Origin: Streptomyces tsukubensis
GTDB lineage: Bacteria; Actinomycetota; Actinomycetes; Streptomycetales; Streptomycetaceae
NCBI RefSeq assembly: GCF_009296025.1
Contig: NZ_CP045178.1
Span: 434,001-498,000 of the forward strand
Length of the DNA: 64,000 nucleotides
Direction of reading: 5' to 3'
The first letter of the stretch is position 1. Every line of letters begins with the position of its first letter. The notes under the pieces were generated by a model. The model was not told where the DNA came from, ran no database searches, and worked only from the letters and a program-made list of their open reading frames with translations. The position numbers and the translations under genes are program-made. This document shows, piece after piece, positions 4,773-12,344 of the stretch.

Positions 4773-6527
4773 TCAGCCCACGTACGGTTCTGGCACTTCT
4801 CCCTGCCTGGCCAGGAACGCGAAGTCGCATCCGGTGTCGGCCTGGGTGATCTGGTCCTGGTAGAGCGCTCCGTAACCGCGCCCGTAACGCTCGGGCGGCG
4901 GGGTCCACGCGGCCCTGCGCCGCTCCATTTCCTCGTCGGACACGTCGAGATGGAGCAGCCGTGCCGCCACGTCCAGCATGACCGGATCACCGGTGCGCAC
5001 CAGGGCGAGCGGCCCGCCGACGAAGGACTCCGGCGCGATGTGCAGCACGCAGGCCCCGTAACTGGTGCCGCTCATCCGGGCGTCGGAGATCCGCACCATG
5101 TCCCGTACGCCCTGCTTCAGCAGGTAGTCAGGGATGGGCAGCATGCCGTACTCGGGCATGCCGGGGCCTCCCTTCGGTCCGGCGTTGCGCAGCACGAGCA
5201 CATGGTCGGGGGTGAGGGCCAGTGCGGGGTCGTTGATGGTGCGCTGCATCTCCTGGTAGGTGTCGAAGACGACAGCGGGGCCTGTGTGGCGCAGCAGGTG
5301 CGGCTCGGCGGCGATGTGCTTGATCACCGCGCCGTCGGGACAGAGGTTGCCGCGCAGCACCGCCACTCCGCCCTCGTCCGCCAGCGCGTGGGAGCGCTCC
5401 CGTATGACGTCGCTGTTGTGCACCTGTGCGCCGGCGAGCTGCGCGCGGAGGGTGTCGTGCTCGACGGTGGGGCGGTCCAGGTGCAGTACGTCGGTGAGCC
5501 GCGCGAGGAAGGCGGGCAGCCCTCCGGCGAAGTGGAAGTCCTCCATCAGGTACTTTCCGCCGGGGCGGAGGTTGGCGAGGACGGGGACGGTGCGGGCGAT
5601 CCGGTCGAAGTCGTCCAGGGTGAGTTTCACCCCGGAGCGGCCCGCCATCGCGATCAGATGGATGACGGCGTTGGTGGAGCCGCCGAGGGCGAGGACCGTG
5701 GCGACGGCGTCCTCGTACGCCTCAGCGGTGAGGAGCTGTGACAACTTCATTTGCCGCCGTACCAGTTCCACGATCCGGAGACCGGAGCGCGCGGCCATCC
5801 GCTCGTGCCCCGAGTCGACGGCCGGGATGGACGAGGCGCCTGCCACGGTCACGCCGAGCGCCTCGGCGGCGGCCGTCAGGGTGGAGGCGGTGCCCATGGT
5901 CATGCAGTGGCCTGCCGAGCGGGCGAGGCCGTTCTCCAGTTCTGCCATCTCGCAGTCGCCGATGAGTCCGGCCCGTCTGTCGTCCCAGTACTTCCACATG
6001 TCCGTGCCGGAGCCGAGGACCTCGCTGCGCCAGTGCCCCGGCAGCATCGGCCCTGCGGGCACGAAGACGGTCGGCAGGTCGACGGAGGCGGCGCCCATCA
6101 GCAGCGCGGGGGTCGTCTTGTCGCAGCCGCCGAGCAGCACCGCGCCGTCGACGGGGTAGGAACGCAGCAGCTCCTCCGTCTCCATCGCGAGCATGTTGCG
6201 GTAGAGCATCGGGGTGGGCTTCTGGAAGGTCTCGGAGAGCGTGGAGACCGGGAATTCGAGTGGGAACCCGCCCGCCTGCCAGACGCCCCGCTTCACCGCC
6301 TGCGCCCGGTCGCGCAGGTGGACATGGCAGGGGTTGATGTCGGACCAGGTGTTGAGGATCGCGATGACCGGCTTGCCCAGGTGTTCCTCCGGCAGGTAAC
6401 CGAGCTGGCGGGTGCGGGCCCGGTGGCTGAACGAGCGCAGCCCCTCCGTGCCGTACCACTGGTGGCTGCGCAGTTCGCCGGGGGCGATACGGGCGCTCTC
6501 GTCGTCCGGCGTGTGTACCTGTCTCAT
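4773..6527 (-). CDS. IlvD/Edd-family sugar-acid dehydratase
   Basis: 584-residue dehydratase of the IlvD/Edd family. Three conserved cysteines expected to hold the Fe-S cluster are present: NPCH (C67), GGCDKTTP (C135) and GHCMTMGTAST (C208). The N-terminal YGTEGLRSFSHRAR block and the sugar-transport context fit the aldonate subgroup (arabonate, xylonate or gluconate dehydratases) rather than biosynthetic dihydroxyacid dehydratase. It would convert an aldonate to a 2-keto-3-deoxy acid. ATG 6527 overlaps the stop of the upstream DapA-type gene by 4 nt and is preferred over a GTG three codons upstream. Confidence 0.92.
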   Translation of the reverse strand: MRQVHTPDDESARIAPGELRSHQWYGTEGLRSFSHRARTRQLGYLPEEHLGKPVIAILNTWSDINPCHVHLRDRAQAVKRGVWQAGGFPLEFPVSTLSETFQKPTPMLYRNMLAMETEELLRSYPVDGAVLLGGCDKTTPALLMGAASVDLPTVFVPAGPMLPGHWRSEVLGSGTDMWKYWDDRRAGLIGDCEMAELENGLARSAGHCMTMGTASTLTAAAEALGVTVAGASSIPAVDSGHERMAARSGLRIVELVRRQMKLSQLLTAEAYEDAVATVLALGGSTNAVIHLIAMAGRSGVKLTLDDFDRIARTVPVLANLRPGGKYLMEDFHFAGGLPAFLARLTDVLHLDRPTVEHDTLRAQLAGAQVHNSDVIRERSHALADEGGVAVLRGNLCPDGAVIKHIAAEPHLLRHTGPAVVFDTYQEMQRTINDPALALTPDHVLVLRNAGPKGGPGMPEYGMLPIPDYLLKQGVRDMVRISDARMSGTSYGACVLHIAPESFVGGPLALVRTGDPVMLDVAARLLHLDVSDEEMERRRAAWTPPPERYGRGYGALYQDQITQADTGCDFAFLARQGEVPEPYVG

Positions 6528-7426
6528 ATGGACCACTCGGCGATCAGCTCGGCGACCTCGGCGCGCCGGGGCCCCGGCAGGATCCGGCTGGGTGCGCGTA
6601 CGTCACGGCGGCAGAGCCCCAGTGCGGACAGGGCCTCCTTGACGACGCTCACGTTGTTGGCGGACTGCTCGTCGGCGCGGAGTTCCTCGAAGCGGCGGAT
6701 CTGCTCCCAGACCTTCATCGCCGCCGTGTAGTCGCCGGCCCGCAGCGCGTCCAGCATGGCGAGCGAGACACCGGGGGCGACATTGACGAGACCCGAGGTG
6801 AATCCGGTGGCGCCGGAGGCGAAGTAGGAGGGGGCGTACAGCTCGGCGAGGCCCGCGACCCAGACGAACCGCTCAAGCCCCGCGTCCCTGGCGAAGGCTC
6901 CGAAGCGTGCGGCGTCGGGGACGGCGTACTTCGCCCCGATGACGTTGGGGCAGTGGTCGGCCAGCTCGGCGAGGCGGTCACCGGCGAGCCGCGCGTTGCG
7001 GATGTACGGGACGATCCCCAGGTCGGGCACGGACTCGGCTATCGCCCGGTGGTAGTCGACCCAGCCGTCCTGCGCGATGTACGGGTGCGCGGGCTGGTGC
7101 ACCATCACCATCTCGGCTCCGCCGTCCCTGGCGTGTTCGGCGGCGGCCACGGCGGTCGACACGTCATGTCCGACGCCTACGAGGACGAGGGCGCGGCCCG
7201 CGCTCTCCTCGATGGTCAACTCGGTGACCGCACGCCGCTCGTCGAGGGTGAGCGCGTAGAACTCGCCGGTATTGCCGTTCGGGGTGACGGTGCGGACGCC
7301 ACCGTCGAGGAGCCTGTTCAGCAGGGCGCGGTGCGCCGCGGTGTCGATCTCCCCGCTCTCGGCGAACGGGGTCACGGGGATCGCCACAACATCTGCGAGG
7401 GCCGCCTTGAGCGGGGAGAAATCCAT
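6524..7426 (-). CDS. DapA/NAL-superfamily lyase or dehydratase (KDG aldolase / KdgD-like)
   Basis: 300-residue TIM-barrel enzyme of the dihydrodipicolinate synthase/N-acetylneuraminate lyase superfamily. The substrate-carboxylate loop NGNTGE (residues 50-55), a barrel tyrosine (Y141 in VPYIRNAR) and the Schiff-base lysine (K166 in NVIGAKYAVPD) are visible. Next to an IlvD-type dehydratase, the likely job is cleavage or dehydration of a 2-keto-3-deoxy sugar acid, for example a KDG-type aldolase or 5-dehydro-4-deoxyglucarate dehydratase. ATG 7426 has AAAGG about 9 nt upstream. A GTG at 7480, overlapping the regulator stop, would add 18 residues that do not look like family sequence. Confidence 0.88.
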   Translation of the reverse strand: MDFSPLKAALADVVAIPVTPFAESGEIDTAAHRALLNRLLDGGVRTVTPNGNTGEFYALTLDERRAVTELTIEESAGRALVLVGVGHDVSTAVAAAEHARDGGAEMVMVHQPAHPYIAQDGWVDYHRAIAESVPDLGIVPYIRNARLAGDRLAELADHCPNVIGAKYAVPDAARFGAFARDAGLERFVWVAGLAELYAPSYFASGATGFTSGLVNVAPGVSLAMLDALRAGDYTAAMKVWEQIRRFEELRADEQSANNVSVVKEALSALGLCRRDVRAPSRILPGPRRAEVAELIAEWSI

Positions 7427-7476
7427 ACGGACTGGCCTTTCTTCGATGTACCGGCGGTACGTTCCCGGCTGCTGGT

Positions 7477-8133
7477 TCACGCCGTGTCACCCCCGTCCTC
7501 GTCGTCGGGGAAGGCGCGGTGCACGAAGGACGCGATGTGGTGGTGGAGCGCCCCGGTGGCGGCCTCGGCGTCACCGGCGAGAGCGAGCCGCAGGATCTCG
7601 CGGTGCTCGGCCGCCTCACGCTCCCAGGAGGGGACCGCCGACCAGGCCACCGTGGAGACGAGTGCGGCCTGGTCGCGGATCTCGTCGAGCATCCGGGAGA
7701 GCAGCGGGTTGCCGCAGCGCAGGTAGAGAGCGCGATGAAAGTCGCGGTTGGCCAGCGAACGGTCCGCCTTGTCGCTCGCCGAGTCGGCTTTCTCCAGCGC
7801 CTCCTGGGCCGCTTCGAGCGAGGCCCCGCGGGTGATGGAGCGGCGCAGCGCCTCGGGCTCCAGGAGCAGGCGTACGTCGTAGACCTCCCTGGCCATGGCC
7901 GCGTCGACGAGCCGCACGGTGGCGCCCTTGTACTGGCTCATCACCACGAGCCCGGTGCCCGCGAGGGTCTTCAGCGCCTCACGTACGGGGGTCTTCGACA
8001 CCCCGAACCGCGCGGCGAGTTCGGTCTCCACCAGGGCCTGGCCCGGCCTCAGCTGCGCGGTCAGGATCGCGTGCTTGACGGCCTCCAATACGTACTGGGT
8101 CCTGGACGGGATCGGGGCGGGCGCAAAGGTCAT
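7477..8133 (-). CDS. GntR-family (FCD/FadR-type) transcriptional regulator
   Basis: 218-residue regulator. The N-terminal winged helix-turn-helix includes AILTAQLRPGQALVETELAARFGVSKTPVREAL, reported here only as the block around residues 22-54, and ends with the characteristic KTPVREAL. The all-helical C-terminal FCD effector domain has the VYDVRLLLEPEALR start and HREILRLALAGD plus HHH metal or ligand residues near the end. As first gene of the minus-strand operon it probably represses the operon and responds to a sugar-acid intermediate. A palindromic region 30-65 nt upstream of its start is a plausible autoregulatory operator. Confidence 0.93.
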   Translation of the reverse strand: MTFAPAPIPSRTQYVLEAVKHAILTAQLRPGQALVETELAARFGVSKTPVREALKTLAGTGLVVMSQYKGATVRLVDAAMAREVYDVRLLLEPEALRRSITRGASLEAAQEALEKADSASDKADRSLANRDFHRALYLRCGNPLLSRMLDEIRDQAALVSTVAWSAVPSWEREAAEHREILRLALAGDAEAATGALHHHIASFVHRAFPDDEDGGDTA

Positions 8134-8160
8134 GGGTGACGGGCTCTCACATCTCGCGTA

Positions 8161-8196
8161 TCGCGTCTCATATATGACGTACGAAGTACGACGCGA
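8161..8196. promoter_or_regulatory. Candidate GntR operator/promoter region
   Basis: A nested symmetrical region just upstream of the GntR start. The outer arms TCGCGTC (8161-8167) and GACGCGA (8190-8196) are perfect inverted repeats. Inside them lies a perfect 10-bp palindrome TCATATATGA (8168-8177), followed by the quasi-palindrome ACGTACGAAGTACG. This AT-rich island is conspicuous in the local GC context and is the expected place for an FCD-family GntR operator. Function is inferred. Confidence 0.55.
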
Positions 8197-8405
8197 TGAA
8201 GCTAGAGGGGGCGCGAATGTTTCGTCAACGCTTCTGACAGAGGAAGTCGATGTCAATTCCCTACGAGGCCTCTGAGCCAAGTACGGGCGCCGGAGCGTGG
8301 GTTGGTGGTACAGGACCGGGCCGCGCCCCGCCGACTCGAAGTTGCCCGCGCCCCGTCGCCGACGGAGCCCCGCGCCTTGTCGTCGGAGCGAGCTGCCGGC
8401 CCGGA
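8197..8405. other. Intergenic spacer, no gene seen
   Basis: Between the GntR promoter region and the 3' end of the membrane protease-like gene. A short tight palindrome CCGTCG-C-CGACGG lies at 8353-8365 and could contribute to termination of the minus-strand transcript. Nothing else is recognisable. Confidence 0.3.
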
Positions 8406-9449
8406 TCAGTTCTGGCGGACCACGGGCACCGCGTCGCAGCCGCGAAGCCTGGCGTCCCTGCGTGCGCGGCCCGGTGACTCGCCGCCGCCCACCACCCGGC
8501 CGTCGAGCACGGCGAGCCAGTCCCCCTCGGCCCGCTCTTCGTGCCGCACGTCCCCGTCGTCCGGCGCCAGCGCGCGGAGCAGGGCCGGGTCGGGTTCCGC
8601 GGTGGTGTCGGCCACCGCCGCCCGGGGTGTTCCCGCGCGCCATTCGGCGACGGTCCTCTCACCTCTCCTGGCCCGTACCCACACCACGTGTTGCAGAACG
8701 ATCAGCGGTCCCAGTGCCGTCAGCAGGGGGAACGCCCCGCTGAGCACTCCGAGTCCGAAGAGAAGGCTGACACCTCCGGACACCGCGAGCCCGACGCCTG
8801 CCGCGAGGAGTCCCGCGGTCCTTCCGAAGGCCTTGGTCGCCACGAGCGGGAAGAGCGCGAGGAGCAGCAGGTCGCCAAGGCCGAGCGCCACCGGTGGATC
8901 GCCCTGGGTGACGGCGAGCAGCGGCGCGAAGGGCAGCCCCATGGCCTGCTCGGCGAACCGGTCCATGACGGAGGTGAGCGCGGTCGCCACCAGGTCGTAG
9001 CAGGCGAGCATGGCCGCGAACCAGGCCGCGTGAACGGATCGCATACCGCTCTGCACCCACATGCTGGCCACCCCCACCACGGCGATGGCGAGCAGGACGT
9101 CGGTCAGAGCCGTCACGGCGGCAGGAAGGTCGGCGAACGCGCATCCGGCGGTGGCGGCGGCCGCCGCCGACGCCGCCACCCAGGCCCGTCCCCCGCCGGT
9201 GAGCGGCGCGAGGGTGAACTGAAGTGCCACGCAGAGGACCAGGCCGAAGACGACGGCCACCGCGGTCCTTGGCATCGCCACGTAGACAAGGGGGGCCGCC
9301 ACCACGACGGCAATGAGCACGGCGACGTCGGGCGGTTCGTATCTGCCGACCGGGGGGCGGGGCATCCTGACCCGTGCGAAGTAGGCGGCCCCCGCCGCTG
9401 TGATCGCGGCGACCGCGCAGTTGAGCCCCACGAGGGCCGTGACGCTCAT
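8406..9449 (-). CDS. Presenilin/SPP-like (YD/GxGD) intramembrane aspartyl protease candidate with DUF5678-like tail
   Basis: 347-residue polytopic membrane protein with nine predicted helices (roughly 4-24, 41-59, 63-82, 90-107, 115-132, 140-161, 186-207, 211-236, 239-259). Helix 6 carries LACYDLV (YD at 151-152) and helix 7 carries ALGLGDLLLL (GLGD at 190-193). This pair, in adjacent helices, is the catalytic diad layout of presenilins and signal peptide peptidases (MEROPS A22). Helix 9 starts FPLLTALGPL (about 240), where the PAL motif is expected, but the match is imperfect. The cytosolic tail (about 305-347: GDWLAVLDGRVVGGGES...) resembles DUF5678. ATG 9449 overlaps the adenylating-enzyme stop by 4 nt. 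Protease function is inference; type IV prepilin peptidase is less likely because the Cys-rich cytosolic loop and the YD context do not fit. Confidence 0.6.
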   Translation of the reverse strand: MSVTALVGLNCAVAAITAAGAAYFARVRMPRPPVGRYEPPDVAVLIAVVVAAPLVYVAMPRTAVAVVFGLVLCVALQFTLAPLTGGGRAWVAASAAAAATAGCAFADLPAAVTALTDVLLAIAVVGVASMWVQSGMRSVHAAWFAAMLACYDLVATALTSVMDRFAEQAMGLPFAPLLAVTQGDPPVALGLGDLLLLALFPLVATKAFGRTAGLLAAGVGLAVSGGVSLLFGLGVLSGAFPLLTALGPLIVLQHVVWVRARRGERTVAEWRAGTPRAAVADTTAEPDPALLRALAPDDGDVRHEERAEGDWLAVLDGRVVGGGESPGRARRDARLRGCDAVPVVRQN

Positions 9450-10915
9450 GCCGTGCGCGCCATGCGTACGGCGGCGGGGCGGACCGACTCGAAGGTGTGC
9501 TCGCGCAAATCCGCGCGGACCGGCCCGGTCCGCGGCAGCCCGGCCGGGTCGTCGTGGAGCACGATGCCGTCCAGCGGGAGCCCAGCGGCGGCGGCCCGTT
9601 CCTCCAGCCGGCCGAGGAGGTCGGTGGCGGGCAGCCGGCGGACCAGGACGTGGAGGAGCGGTCCTTCCGGCCGGTCGACAAGGGCGTGGCGCGCGGGCAG
9701 GGGGATGTCGGGCTCCGCCTCCAGCAGTTCCAGTAAGGACCGGGTGGTGATCGCGCCGCTCAAGGGCCCCGACCAGCGGCCGAGTATCGGTGAGGTGGCG
9801 GGCAGATGGGCCAGTTCGCAACGGGGCGCGGTCTCGGGGCGCCTGACCAGGTCGCCGGTGGCGTAGCGCAGCAGCAGGGTGCACTCCCGGTACGGGACGT
9901 ACGGTGTCGACACGATGACGCCGACGGCGCCCGGTGGTGTCGGCTCATGGGTGAGGGGGTCGAGTATCTCCATGTGACCGAACTCGGTGGTGTGGTGCAG
10001 ATGCCCCTCGGTGCACGGTGTACCGCCGGAGGGCAGCGTCTCGGTCATCATGTACGAGGTGGTGATCCGGGCGCCGAGGGCGGCGGCGGCGCGCTCCTGC
10101 AAGGCATCGGAGAGCACTTCCCCACCGACGCCGATGGATTCCAGACCGAAGTCAGAGGAGTCCCAGCCGTCCCTTTCCGCGCTCTCCACGAGGGCGGAGA
10201 GGTAGGAGGCGGAGACGGTCAGGTGGGTGATCTGCGGGGCCTTGTTCCGCAGGCCGAGCGGTGTGGCCAGCCGATCCAGCGCGACGGCGGGATCGACGGT
10301 GCCTATCTGGACGAACGAGGCGCCGATCCTGGTCACCGACTCCTCGACGTTGAGCAGCGGCAGGGTCGCCCGCGAGCAGCCCGCGTAGGCCATGGTGTGA
10401 CGGGGGCGCAGTCCCATGCCGAGTACGGCGGAGACGGTGCTCATGGCGACCGCGATCTCCACCTCGGCCCTGGAGTACCAGACAGTGGTGGGGGTGCCGC
10501 TGGTCCCTGTGGTGAGCGCCATCAGCGCGGGGGTGGCGGCGGCGGAGACGAAAGCGGCGGGCAGGGCACGCAGCGACGCCTTGGAGGTGACCGGCACCAG
10601 GTCCCAGGTGTCAGGGGTGAGGGTGCGGGGGTCGAGTCCCAGGCCGTCGAAGGTTCGCCGGTAGTGGGCCGTGTGGCGGACGGCGGCCCTCGCGGTGGCC
10701 CGCAGGCTGCGTTCCATGACGGTCCGTCGTACGGCGGGGTCGACCGCGCCGCCCGCCTGGCCGGGGAGCAGAGCGGAGTCCGCCCCAGGCTCACCGAATT
10801 CCGCCAGGGTCGCGACGAGGTCCCTGGCGATGCGTTCCACGTCCCGCGGGCGGATACGCCGGTTGCGCAGGATCGCCGTGCCGTAGCGGAGCTGACTGAG
10901 GGCGGTGCCGAACAA
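9446..10915 (-). CDS. F390-synthetase/PaaK-like adenylate-forming enzyme
   Basis: 489-residue ANL-superfamily protein of the phenylacetate-CoA ligase/coenzyme F390 synthetase type. The ATP-binding loop MALTTGTSGTPTTVWY (TTGTSGTP at 135-142), a YMMTETLPSGG motif and LRYATGDLVRRPE (adenylation A7-like) are visible; the C-terminal lysine region is divergent. It would activate a carboxylate as acyl-AMP, possibly with onward transfer. The reading frame is open far upstream, but the only start with an SD that does not overlap the peptide gene is TTG 10915, preceded by GGAGG at 10920-10924. It sits between the small peptide gene and the membrane-protease-like gene, so a peptide-derived carboxylate is an attractive substrate (inference). 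Confidence 0.8.
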   Translation of the reverse strand: MFGTALSQLRYGTAILRNRRIRPRDVERIARDLVATLAEFGEPGADSALLPGQAGGAVDPAVRRTVMERSLRATARAAVRHTAHYRRTFDGLGLDPRTLTPDTWDLVPVTSKASLRALPAAFVSAAATPALMALTTGTSGTPTTVWYSRAEVEIAVAMSTVSAVLGMGLRPRHTMAYAGCSRATLPLLNVEESVTRIGASFVQIGTVDPAVALDRLATPLGLRNKAPQITHLTVSASYLSALVESAERDGWDSSDFGLESIGVGGEVLSDALQERAAAALGARITTSYMMTETLPSGGTPCTEGHLHHTTEFGHMEILDPLTHEPTPPGAVGVIVSTPYVPYRECTLLLRYATGDLVRRPETAPRCELAHLPATSPILGRWSGPLSGAITTRSLLELLEAEPDIPLPARHALVDRPEGPLLHVLVRRLPATDLLGRLEERAAAAGLPLDGIVLHDDPAGLPRTGPVRADLREHTFESVRPAAVRMARTA

Positions 10916-10929
10916 GGGGCCTCCAGATG

Positions 10930-10958
10930 CCTGGACCGGGCTGTCCTCCCGGTCCAGG
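10930..10958 (-). terminator. Perfect 11-bp hairpin between peptide gene and adenylating enzyme (attenuator/partial terminator)
   Basis: On the plus strand CCTGGACCGGG (10930-10940) and CCCGGTCCAGG (10948-10958) are perfect inverted repeats with a 7-nt loop. It starts 14 nt beyond the peptide stop and ends 6 nt before the SD of the TTG-started enzyme gene. There is no U-tract, which is common for actinobacterial terminators. The likely effect is a high peptide-to-enzyme expression ratio or 3'-end stabilisation of a short peptide mRNA. Confidence 0.7.
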
Positions 10959-10971
10959 CCGGGGCCGAGCG

Positions 10972-11040
10972 TCAGACCATGCTGGCGAACATCGCCGCTG
11001 TGAGCGTGCTGAAGGCGTACTTGATGTAGTGCTTGACCAT
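10972..11040 (-). CDS. 22-residue hydrophobic peptide (putative precursor/signal peptide)
   Basis: Small gene below usual annotation cut-offs. ATG 11040 is preceded by a strong SD (GGGAG, 7-nt spacing) and the frame stops at 10972-10974 (TGA). The product begins MVKHYIKYAF and ends TAAMFASMV: a basic N-terminus (K3, H4, K7) followed by about 15 hydrophobic or small residues, enough for one membrane helix. There is no Cys and no double-Gly leader, so it is not a typical lanthipeptide or class II bacteriocin precursor. A strong SD, correct placement as first gene, the downstream hairpin, and an adenylating enzyme plus an intramembrane-protease-like gene behind it support it as a real, functionally linked gene. 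Function is unknown. Confidence 0.72.
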   Translation of the reverse strand: MVKHYIKYAFSTLTAAMFASMV

Positions 11041-11438
11041 GTGGGATCTCCCTTTTCCGTGCCGCCCGCGGACGGCTGGGTTCCTGGTGGTGCACTGCGG
11101 GCCGAAACTGACGGATCGGCGAACGCGCCCTCAGAGTAAGGGAGTTGTGGCCACAGCGGTATCCTCGGGTCACCTGTATTCCCGGCGCTCTTCCCGCCCC
11201 CTCGGCTCCGTCCGGCAGTCGGTCGTCGGCTGCGCGGACGGGTCATGGCGCTCAGCGCGTGGCGCGGGCACGGATCGGGCCTCGCCCGGCCCGCACCTCC
11301 GGCTCGTCTTTGGCGCGATGCGCTGTCGGCGAAGCGCCGCCCGGACACGCTACGGTCGGGACGGGGGCCTGGCGAGCCCGTCACCAGGGGGGCCAGGCAC
11401 ACTGCATCCATAGCAGTCTCACATCAGAAGGATCACGC
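11041..11438. other. Divergent promoter region between peptide operon and terD-like gene
   Basis: About 400 nt without a convincing gene. Outside the SD of the peptide (GGGAG near 11046-11050) and the AGAAGG SD of the TerD gene (11426-11431) I recognise no operator. Promoters for both directions must lie here, but no unambiguous -35/-10 pair stands out. Confidence 0.4.
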
Positions 11439-12023
11439 ATGATCACACTTAAGAAGGAAGACGGCCCGGCGGATCTGGGTGGGGTCACTCATCTGTCCAT
11501 CGGGGTGTCCTGGGACCCCACCGTCGGGAGCAGCGGCGGGCTGATGGGGAAGCTCCGTCAGAAGACCGGTACCGACCTTGATCTGATCGCCATCGCGATG
11601 GCGGGGGCCGAGCCGGTGCGCCTTGCCGGGCTCGACTCGCTGGACCCGCTGGGCAATGGCTCGCTGGTGCACAGCGGGGACAACCAGACGGGCAAGGGGG
11701 ACGGCGACGACGAGACGGTGACCGTCGAGTTCGAGCGTGTGCCTGACAACATCACCGCCATCGTGTTCGTCGCCGCCGCGTACAAGAAGCGCAGTGCCTT
11801 CCAGAACGCGCGGAACATCAGCTTCAAGGTGTACGACGCGACGGGCGGCAGCACCCAGCAGGTCGCCGACATCTGGCCCAGTCTCCTCACCAATGACAAC
11901 GGCTGCGCCGTGGCCAAGGCGATGCGGGACGGCGCGGGCTGGAAGCTGGAGGTGATCAACGAGACCGGGAAGATCAAGCAGGGCGACGAACAGGCCCTGA
12001 TGCGCTTCGCCATGAGCAAGTAA
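11439..12023 (+). CDS. TerD-family stress protein
   Basis: 194-residue TerD/CABP-type protein, a cytoplasmic calcium-binding beta-sandwich family linked to tellurite resistance and general stress, and abundant in Streptomyces. The N-terminal LSIGVSWDP block and the calcium-site region NGSLVHSGDNQTGKGDGDDE (about residues 76-95) are present, as is the family feature VFVAAAYKK. ATG 11439 has AGAAGG 7 nt upstream. It is monocistronic and ends at a strong hairpin. It lies divergent from the peptide/protease module; a functional link is not implied. Confidence 0.95.
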   Translation: MITLKKEDGPADLGGVTHLSIGVSWDPTVGSSGGLMGKLRQKTGTDLDLIAIAMAGAEPVRLAGLDSLDPLGNGSLVHSGDNQTGKGDGDDETVTVEFERVPDNITAIVFVAAAYKKRSAFQNARNISFKVYDATGGSTQQVADIWPSLLTNDNGCAVAKAMRDGAGWKLEVINETGKIKQGDEQALMRFAMSK

Positions 12024-12344
12024 CGAGAAAACGGGCGACAGAAGTTCGGGCGGCCGTGGCCCATCGGCCGACGGCCGACCCGAACGGGCACGCCGGGGCG
12101 GATCCGCCCGGCCCTGTCGCACCCCCCACCCCGAGCACCGCGCGGCAGGCGTCCCGCACCGCGCGACGGGCGTCCGACGGGGCAGTCGTTCTCGCCGGAG
12201 GGGCCGTACTCACCGCACGGCCGACCCGACCGCAGAGCCATCTCCGCCGGGCGGCCGTCTTCATCTCTGCCGGGCGGCCGTCCTCACCGGACGGCCTTCT
12301 TCACCGGACGATCACTCTCACCGATCACGCGCCCCCTGGGGGAG
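12024..12344. other. Intergenic region with degenerate short repeats
   Basis: Beyond the terD hairpin, 12240-12330 holds degenerate direct repeats: GCCGGGCGGCCGTC appears at about 12246 and 12269, followed by CACCGGACG-containing copies at about 12285, 12303 and further. No gene is supported. The region lies next to the MarR-UbiD deletion scar. Confidence 0.45.
12044..12085 (+). terminator. Terminator hairpin downstream of the terD-like gene
   Basis: GTTCGGGCGGCCGT (12044-12057) pairs with ACGGCCG-A-CCCGAAC (12071-12085): two 7-bp blocks separated by a single unpaired A, 21 nt after the stop. Strong GC stem without a T-tract, typical for Streptomyces. Confidence 0.7.

Follow-up and report, generated by a model that had tools for sequence, protein, structure and literature searches.

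The minus strand of a 64-kb window (the whole stretch of DNA that was analysed) from the 8.6-Mb genome of Streptomyces tsukubensis carries three adjacent genes, encoding a 22-residue peptide, a PaaK-like enzyme of the ANL superfamily of AMP-forming ligases, and a nine-helix membrane protein with the fold of presenilin and signal peptide peptidase (SPP). Relatives of all three occur together in 59 of 59 loci in which the ANL and protease frames are open. With roughly even confidence, they are read here as a peptide-maturation unit, in which the membrane protein would act as a protease that cuts the peptide and the ANL enzyme would act on the fragment, the product most likely being a signal or an antimicrobial. 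The peptide gene (MVKHYIKYAFSTLTAAMFASMV; 10972..11040), the core of which is shared by all of the loci, has its Shine-Dalgarno sequence, AAGGGAG, at 11048..11054, where a G-rich stretch is seen at the same place in 23 aligned loci. A streptomycete feature, a perfect 12-bp hairpin with a 7-nt loop (10929..10959), occupies the interval before the ANL gene (9446..10915; 489 aa), which has a TTG start and a GGAGG Shine-Dalgarno sequence at 10920..10924. The membrane protein gene (8406..9449; 347 aa) overlaps the ANL gene by ATGA. Every coordinate of these elements in the original prediction, all on the minus strand, was borne out. In the tree of the protease the nearest rows to the window are in Streptomyces.

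Conservation of the peptide gene beside the protease gene had been set beforehand as one of two points on which the prediction would stand or fall, and the peptide gene is present in each of the 59 loci with open ANL and protease frames, the window included. A genome scan identified 34 named loci. Within the first set of 40 loci, which includes the window, ANL adjoins the protease in 39, the exception (L005) being a decayed copy. The peptide gene is upstream of the ANL gene in 32 of the 34 named loci; in an Actinomadura locus (L038) it is directly after the protease gene and in an Anaerolineales locus (L033) there are two peptide genes on the opposite strand. Two are also found in L037, both upstream. 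Further peptide-bearing loci are L058 and L059 (sampled from the phylum to which the L037 genome belongs), L063 (another locus of the L028 genome), L064, L066, L067, two on plasmids (L074 and L075), thirteen of a second Streptomyces subfamily (L099–L111), L113, L115, and L116. The 59 loci contain 61 peptide genes, encoding 44 distinct peptides. Distances between the ANL enzymes and between the proteases are correlated (r = 0.957, 38 loci). The family is coherent across the Actinomycetota and the Chloroflexota, the latter name being used for L033 and L036, so labelled in the tree, and for L037, labelled Thermomicrobiota. The actinobacterial scope first proposed is too narrow, as Chloroflexota carry the unit as well.

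The 953,443 bases of the 59 loci, including the whole window, were scanned for the peptide motif together with a Shine-Dalgarno sequence. There was one match in 57 loci, two each in L033 and L037, and no match beyond the 61 peptide genes. The motif was derived from these same peptides, therefore only the absence of surplus matches is independent evidence.

The peptides are 22–30 residues in length and their core aligns gap-free across the Actinomycetota and Chloroflexota. Counting from the core Tyr as position 0, the 44 distinct peptides have K or R at −1 in every case (R in 14), Y at 0 in 43, S or G at +3 in 41, L or M at +5 in 42, A or V at +8 in 42, and F at +10 in 43. A variable tail of 3–7 residues follows Phe(+10). 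The window peptide has a basic and aromatic N-terminus, a hydrophobic core, and then a 4-residue tail past F18. There is no K or R beyond the core Tyr in 41 of the 44, and all of the distinct peptides taken together contain a single acidic residue. The ratio of nonsynonymous to synonymous substitution (dN/dS) is 0.31 for 20 distinct streptomycete genes, a value obtained from short genes and with no significance test.

The peptides of the second Streptomyces subfamily and of L058, L059, and L063 are grouped as type 2, having a Cys in the tail, and the proteases of these loci fall on one side of one branch (support 100/100). A Cys tail is also present outside this group, in L026 and L027. The proteases of L099–L111 are about 30–38% identical to that of the window, their peptides are such as MSAIVSTLKHTKYVMGSLAAVLFTNCPS, and the Cys tail of these resembles a truncated lipobox. 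In 23 loci, a short CT-rich element (CCCTTACTCT / TCCTAGACTG) recurs in the 150 nt ahead of the peptide gene and may include the −10 region. On plasmid NZ_CP108387.1 (L074) the peptide gene at 6410 has no feature in the PLSDB gene table, an incomplete table in which ANL and protease are listed, therefore such units are easily overlooked. The record of the second plasmid (L075) carries no annotation.

Judging from its computed fold, diad, and topology, the nine-helix protein would be a bacterial intramembrane aspartyl protease. The AlphaFold2 model of the window protein has nine long helices, the fold common to the solved presenilin and SPP members, with YD in the sixth (138–157) and GLGD where the seventh (191–208) begins, as had been proposed from the sequence. 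The first catalytic motif, Y151-D152, is at 8994..8999 (−) and the second, G190-L191-G192-D193, at 8871..8882 (−). All 59 loci keep the two Asp, the Tyr, and the two Gly, while 45 have L and 14 have M at position 191. In the model a beta-strand (187–190) immediately precedes the GLGD helix, with a further strand at 177–181. The predicted topology is N-out/C-in, which is SPP-like, and the soluble C-terminal domain (about 288–347) is DUF5678-like in some relatives. Fold, invariant diad, and topology support the earlier assignment to the presenilin/SPP group (MEROPS A22). For the second point set beforehand, that D152 and D193 should face one another within the membrane, the support is indirect only.

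Among solved structures, the ANL profile best matches phenylacetate-CoA ligases (4r1l, E 1.3e-39), and the core motifs that mark ANL members, TTGTxG (here TTGT[ST]G), [YF]xxTE, and YxTxD, are present. T135, T136, G137, T138, G140, T291, E292, Y351, T353, and D355 are invariant in all 59 enzymes, of which 51 have Y and 8 have F at position 288. The score against the TIGR02155 PaaK equivalog is 50.4 bits, with a cut-off of 646.3. The enzymes are extended at the N-terminus by about 60 conserved residues, among which G41 is invariant and E39-F40 nearly so, with an amphipathic-looking start, FxTAxxQLRY. The C-terminal end, R467-x-D-L-x-E-x-x-F475, is invariant in the family. Within residues 1–21 of the window enzyme (10853–10915) the sequence QLRYxxAxL....[IF] is spaced like the peptide core, matching it in R-Y, a small residue at +3, L at +5, and I or F at +10, a likeness for which chance was not assessed. 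Possibly, the ANL N-terminus and the peptide bind the same groove of the protease.

Under the maturation reading, the small gene would provide a ready-made signal-peptide-like membrane peptide, with its basic and aromatic end inside, a short hydrophobic core, and a tail of 3–7 residues outside. Its charge suggests that it would be N-in, like SPP type II substrates. SPP recognises signal peptides after loss of the mature domain and takes free signal peptides, according to PMC13252537; the unit peptide is made without a mature domain. The streptomycete hairpin may hold the enzymes below the peptide in amount. The nine-helix protease, which likely cleaves the linked peptide, would bind it with the tail added as a strand beside strands 177–181 and 187–190. 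Cleavage would be near the conserved Phe(+10), leaving at least three residues after the cut. Gamma-secretase needs a P1'–P4' strand from its substrate, as stated in PMC10290658, and a tail of at least three residues past Phe(+10) could provide one. The N-terminal Y-x-[KR]-Y fragment, with its new carboxyl end, would then be passed to the PaaK-like enzyme, the conserved amphipathic N-terminus of which may dock it at the membrane. In the least certain step, the ANL enzyme might activate the new C-terminus of the fragment or couple it to another group, generating a small modified peptide.

Several results weigh against this reading. The comparison with Pfam presenilin/SPP profiles that was proposed along with the original prediction gave no match in 17 of 17 members, PF06550 has no match in the own genome, and the protease profile matches no presenilin or SPP among PDB sequences. 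The protein is therefore named A22-like by fold and placed outside of the sequence family. The PAL motif of helix 9 is absent, with an LGPL-type sequence instead (G247 and P248 each in 58 of 59). The ANL enzymes all lack the A10 lysine. Its position (465), located by aligning them to the GK of the PaaK that the genome itself encodes (L070), is P in 44 loci, R in 12, and H, S, and T in one each. This makes ordinary adenylation doubtful. The absence stands beyond one alignment, because the window enzyme has no lysines after G379 and columns 380–475 contain no Lys-rich position (30 of the 59 enzymes have no Lys here at all and no column has Lys in more than 20). Adenylation by this family is plausible but uncertain, the core motifs being invariant or nearly so, yet the A10 position never Lys; R467 might substitute for the lysine. 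Clustering of open reading frames (ORFs) from 40 loci found no common transporter, regulator, or additional enzyme. The strong conservation of the peptide core could fit a structural or regulatory role as well.

The main rival, itself improbable, is that acylation comes first, with the ANL enzyme attaching a small aryl or fatty acid to the N-terminus or a lysine of the peptide and the protease trimming it afterwards. PaaK kin activate aryl acids, consistent with the phenylacetate-CoA ligases as best structural matches, and K or R at −1 is present throughout the distinct peptides, with R in 14 of these. However, no core position has an invariant Lys, this chemistry also needs the A10 lysine that is absent, and there is no common acyltransferase among the clustered loci.

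Somewhat less probable again is the peptide as an uncleaved small subunit or regulator of the protease and ANL enzyme, the real substrate being elsewhere. Large proteins are often regulated by small membrane proteins, and a gap-free, strongly conserved core over two phyla fits such a subunit. The doubled peptide genes of L033 and L037 and the short, variable tails are better suited to a substrate, however, and free signal peptides are SPP substrates in the account of PMC13252537.

There is little likelihood that the peptide is a membrane-active toxin which the protease removes and the ANL enzyme modifies or senses. In size and charge it is like small membrane-active toxin peptides. The unit is also uncommon, patchy, and able to sit on plasmids, as seen from the sample counts and the copies on two Streptomyces plasmids. 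The protease was matched in 25 of 392 genomes of the genus sample (three by fragments alone; G019, G984, and G1042), in 7 of 400 sampled from the phylum that includes the L037 genome (of which L055–L057 are scraps), and, with a query from Nonomuraea, in 1 of 296 in the even phylum sample, this being the own genome. These counts are lower bounds, with the best 5–7 candidates per genome scored. On the other side, no PADLOC model matches the ANL enzyme or the protease, on which ground a defence system was also set aside. Conservation of the core seems high for an arms-race toxin. Two decayed copies, L068, where a fragment of the protease is left and ANL and peptide are missing, and L112, a broken ANL/protease pair in which no peptide gene was found, gave no leftover free toxin in the same scan, although loss of the whole unit would look alike.

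Neither decayed copy was counted among the loci, nor were L060–L062, which are scraps or have no similarity on re-inspection, and L096, a 40-residue C-terminal match. Duplicates were dropped; these are L001, L041, L042, L069, and L071 (the window), L065 (L016), L114 (L012), L117 (L023), L118 (L025), L002–L006 (short copies of L064, L016, L066, L068, and L067), and L043–L054 and L076–L098 (shorter versions of longer loci or of matches already listed). The contig end precedes the protease stop codon in L014, L031, and L039. A stop is present within the matches L083, L084, and L087, which are the proteases of L100, L101, and L104; since the frame is open for 94–104 residues past GxGD, this is read as the gene end. 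The protease has no match in phage records.

It is very improbable that the nine-helix protein has the fold yet is not a protease, acting instead as, for example, a peptide channel or receptor, as the two Asp, the Tyr, and the two Gly of the diad motifs do not vary over the 59 loci even though LGPL replaces the literal PAL motif.

The hairpin reads GCCTGGACCGGG / loop AGGACAG / CCCGGTCCAGGC from 10959 to 10929, with 12 perfect pairs. The 81-nt stretch around it has a folding z of −2.95, equalled by 1 of 200 shuffles. Across 16 streptomycete loci, including the window, 96.9% of the stem cells are paired, and 1 of 500 shuffles attains the covariation score. Two pairs are altered on both sides, which is reached by 98 of 500. 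Outside these streptomycetes the hairpin is not family-wide; there are different stems, stems of 6–7 bp, or none (L036). Rfam has no match within window positions 8000–12200. The streptomycete hairpin may determine how much peptide is made relative to the enzymes. Leader-peptide attenuation, with the small ORF and hairpin as a cis regulator of the enzyme genes, would fit their order in the 16 aligned streptomycete loci, the window among them, but is rejected, with hardly any likelihood left to it, because the peptide gene is downstream in L038 and in two other-strand copies in L033. Also against it, the hairpin is not kept outside the streptomycetes and the amino-acid core is kept over the 44 distinct peptides.

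A conserved fourth partner was likewise rejected. In the ORF clustering, two clusters, spanning 14 and 9 loci, consist of ORFs antisense to the protease gene, the sole real wide neighbour cluster is of TPR/NB-ARC proteins in just 9 of the 40, and all others are in 7 or fewer. This clustering leaves out L064–L067, L074, L075, L099–L111, L113, L115, and L116, and the neighbours of L058, L059, L063, and L033 were listed as ORFs outside of it. Five of the six named Nonomuraea loci (not L032) have, immediately past the protease gene and convergent with it, a regulator some 1000 aa long on the minus strand (L026:10964–14143, L027:10957–14373, L034:10923–14009, L035:10929–13994, and L040:10953–13943). 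Those of L026 and L040 contain Trans_reg_C, BTAD, NB-ARC, and TPR domains, and the remaining ones cluster with them. There are 65 and 66 BTAD matches in two such genomes, therefore the adjacency is notable, yet partly due to shared descent. It raises the question of whether the regulator is a receptor for the product of the unit. In L006 the protease gene is followed by one for a TPR protein, while L036 and L025 have HTH/NB-ARC/TPR or NB-ARC/TPR proteins upstream. In the window a TerD-domain protein (E 1.1e-17; 11439–12023, +) is divergent from the peptide gene; among the neighbour clusters of the 40 loci, considering the largest clusters only, TerD is not prominent. Downstream, 4773–8139 (−) contains an unrelated-looking catabolic cluster, which judging from the translations may encode a dehydratase, a DapA-like aldolase, and a GntR-type regulator.

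The protease is like SPP, SPP-like (SPPL), and presenilin proteins (human SPPL2a 9k93, gamma-secretase chain B, and archaeal PSH 4hyc/4hyg/4y6k) in its nine-helix fold, YD in helix 6, GxGD in helix 7, beta-strands beside the GxGD helix, N-out topology as in SPP, and signal-peptide-like candidate substrate. It differs from these in lacking a sequence-profile match, in having LGPL for PAL and, in many members, an extra C-terminal domain, and in being bacterial, with genes for a single dedicated peptide and an ANL enzyme alongside its own. While the ANL enzyme shares the three core motifs with PaaK and F390-synthetase-like enzymes (4r1l), it differs in the extra N-terminus of about 60 residues, the lack of the A10 lysine, the invariant RxDLxExxF end, and scores far under the PaaK cut-offs. 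As in pathways for ribosomally synthesised and post-translationally modified peptides (RiPPs), a small ribosomal peptide is encoded beside dedicated enzymes, in streptomycetes a hairpin follows the precursor gene, and precursors are occasionally doubled. The differences are a precursor of as little as 22 residues and a processing enzyme that would be an intramembrane aspartyl protease; to our knowledge, the unit has no RiPP enzyme. The pheromones that Enterococcus Eep, an M50 enzyme, frees from lipoprotein signal peptides are similar in that an intramembrane protease releases a short piece of a sequence resembling a signal peptide, and the type 2 peptides of the unit end in a Cys-containing tail. 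Here, though, the enzyme is aspartyl rather than metallo, the peptide stands alone rather than as part of a lipoprotein, and there is an ANL partner.

The archaeal MCMJR1 is the presenilin-like enzyme that was first shown outside the eukaryotes, with physiological substrates described as unknown in 2010 in PMC2947513. Bacterial intramembrane proteases are said to include aspartyl enzymes in PMC7593790, but the example given is eukaryotic presenilin. PMC12067869 treats presenilin and archaeal PSH, with LspA as the bacterial aspartyl enzyme. Among the matches listed from the openly licensed literature there is no paper on such a unit and no characterised bacterial presenilin/SPP-fold protease. 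For PepX, a 19-aa Streptomyces peptide described in PMC11256431, no link was found, though without sight of the PepX sequence.

It is conceivable, at somewhat under even odds, that these are bacterial presenilin/SPP-fold proteases with a dedicated, linked, endogenous substrate, and that the unit is the founding member of a class of ribosomal peptide products, signals or antimicrobials, matured by intramembrane cleavage, after which an ANL enzyme lacking the A10 lysine modifies the new carboxyl end. Proteases of the presenilin type have a central part in Alzheimer's disease. Here, a bacterial protein with the presenilin fold comes with a probable natural substrate, a peptide of 22–30 residues, in the genetically tractable Streptomyces. 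A minimal system of this kind could therefore serve to study natural cleavage, substrate recognition, and the action of inhibitors. Should the ANL step prove true, the unit would also be a new route to peptide natural products.

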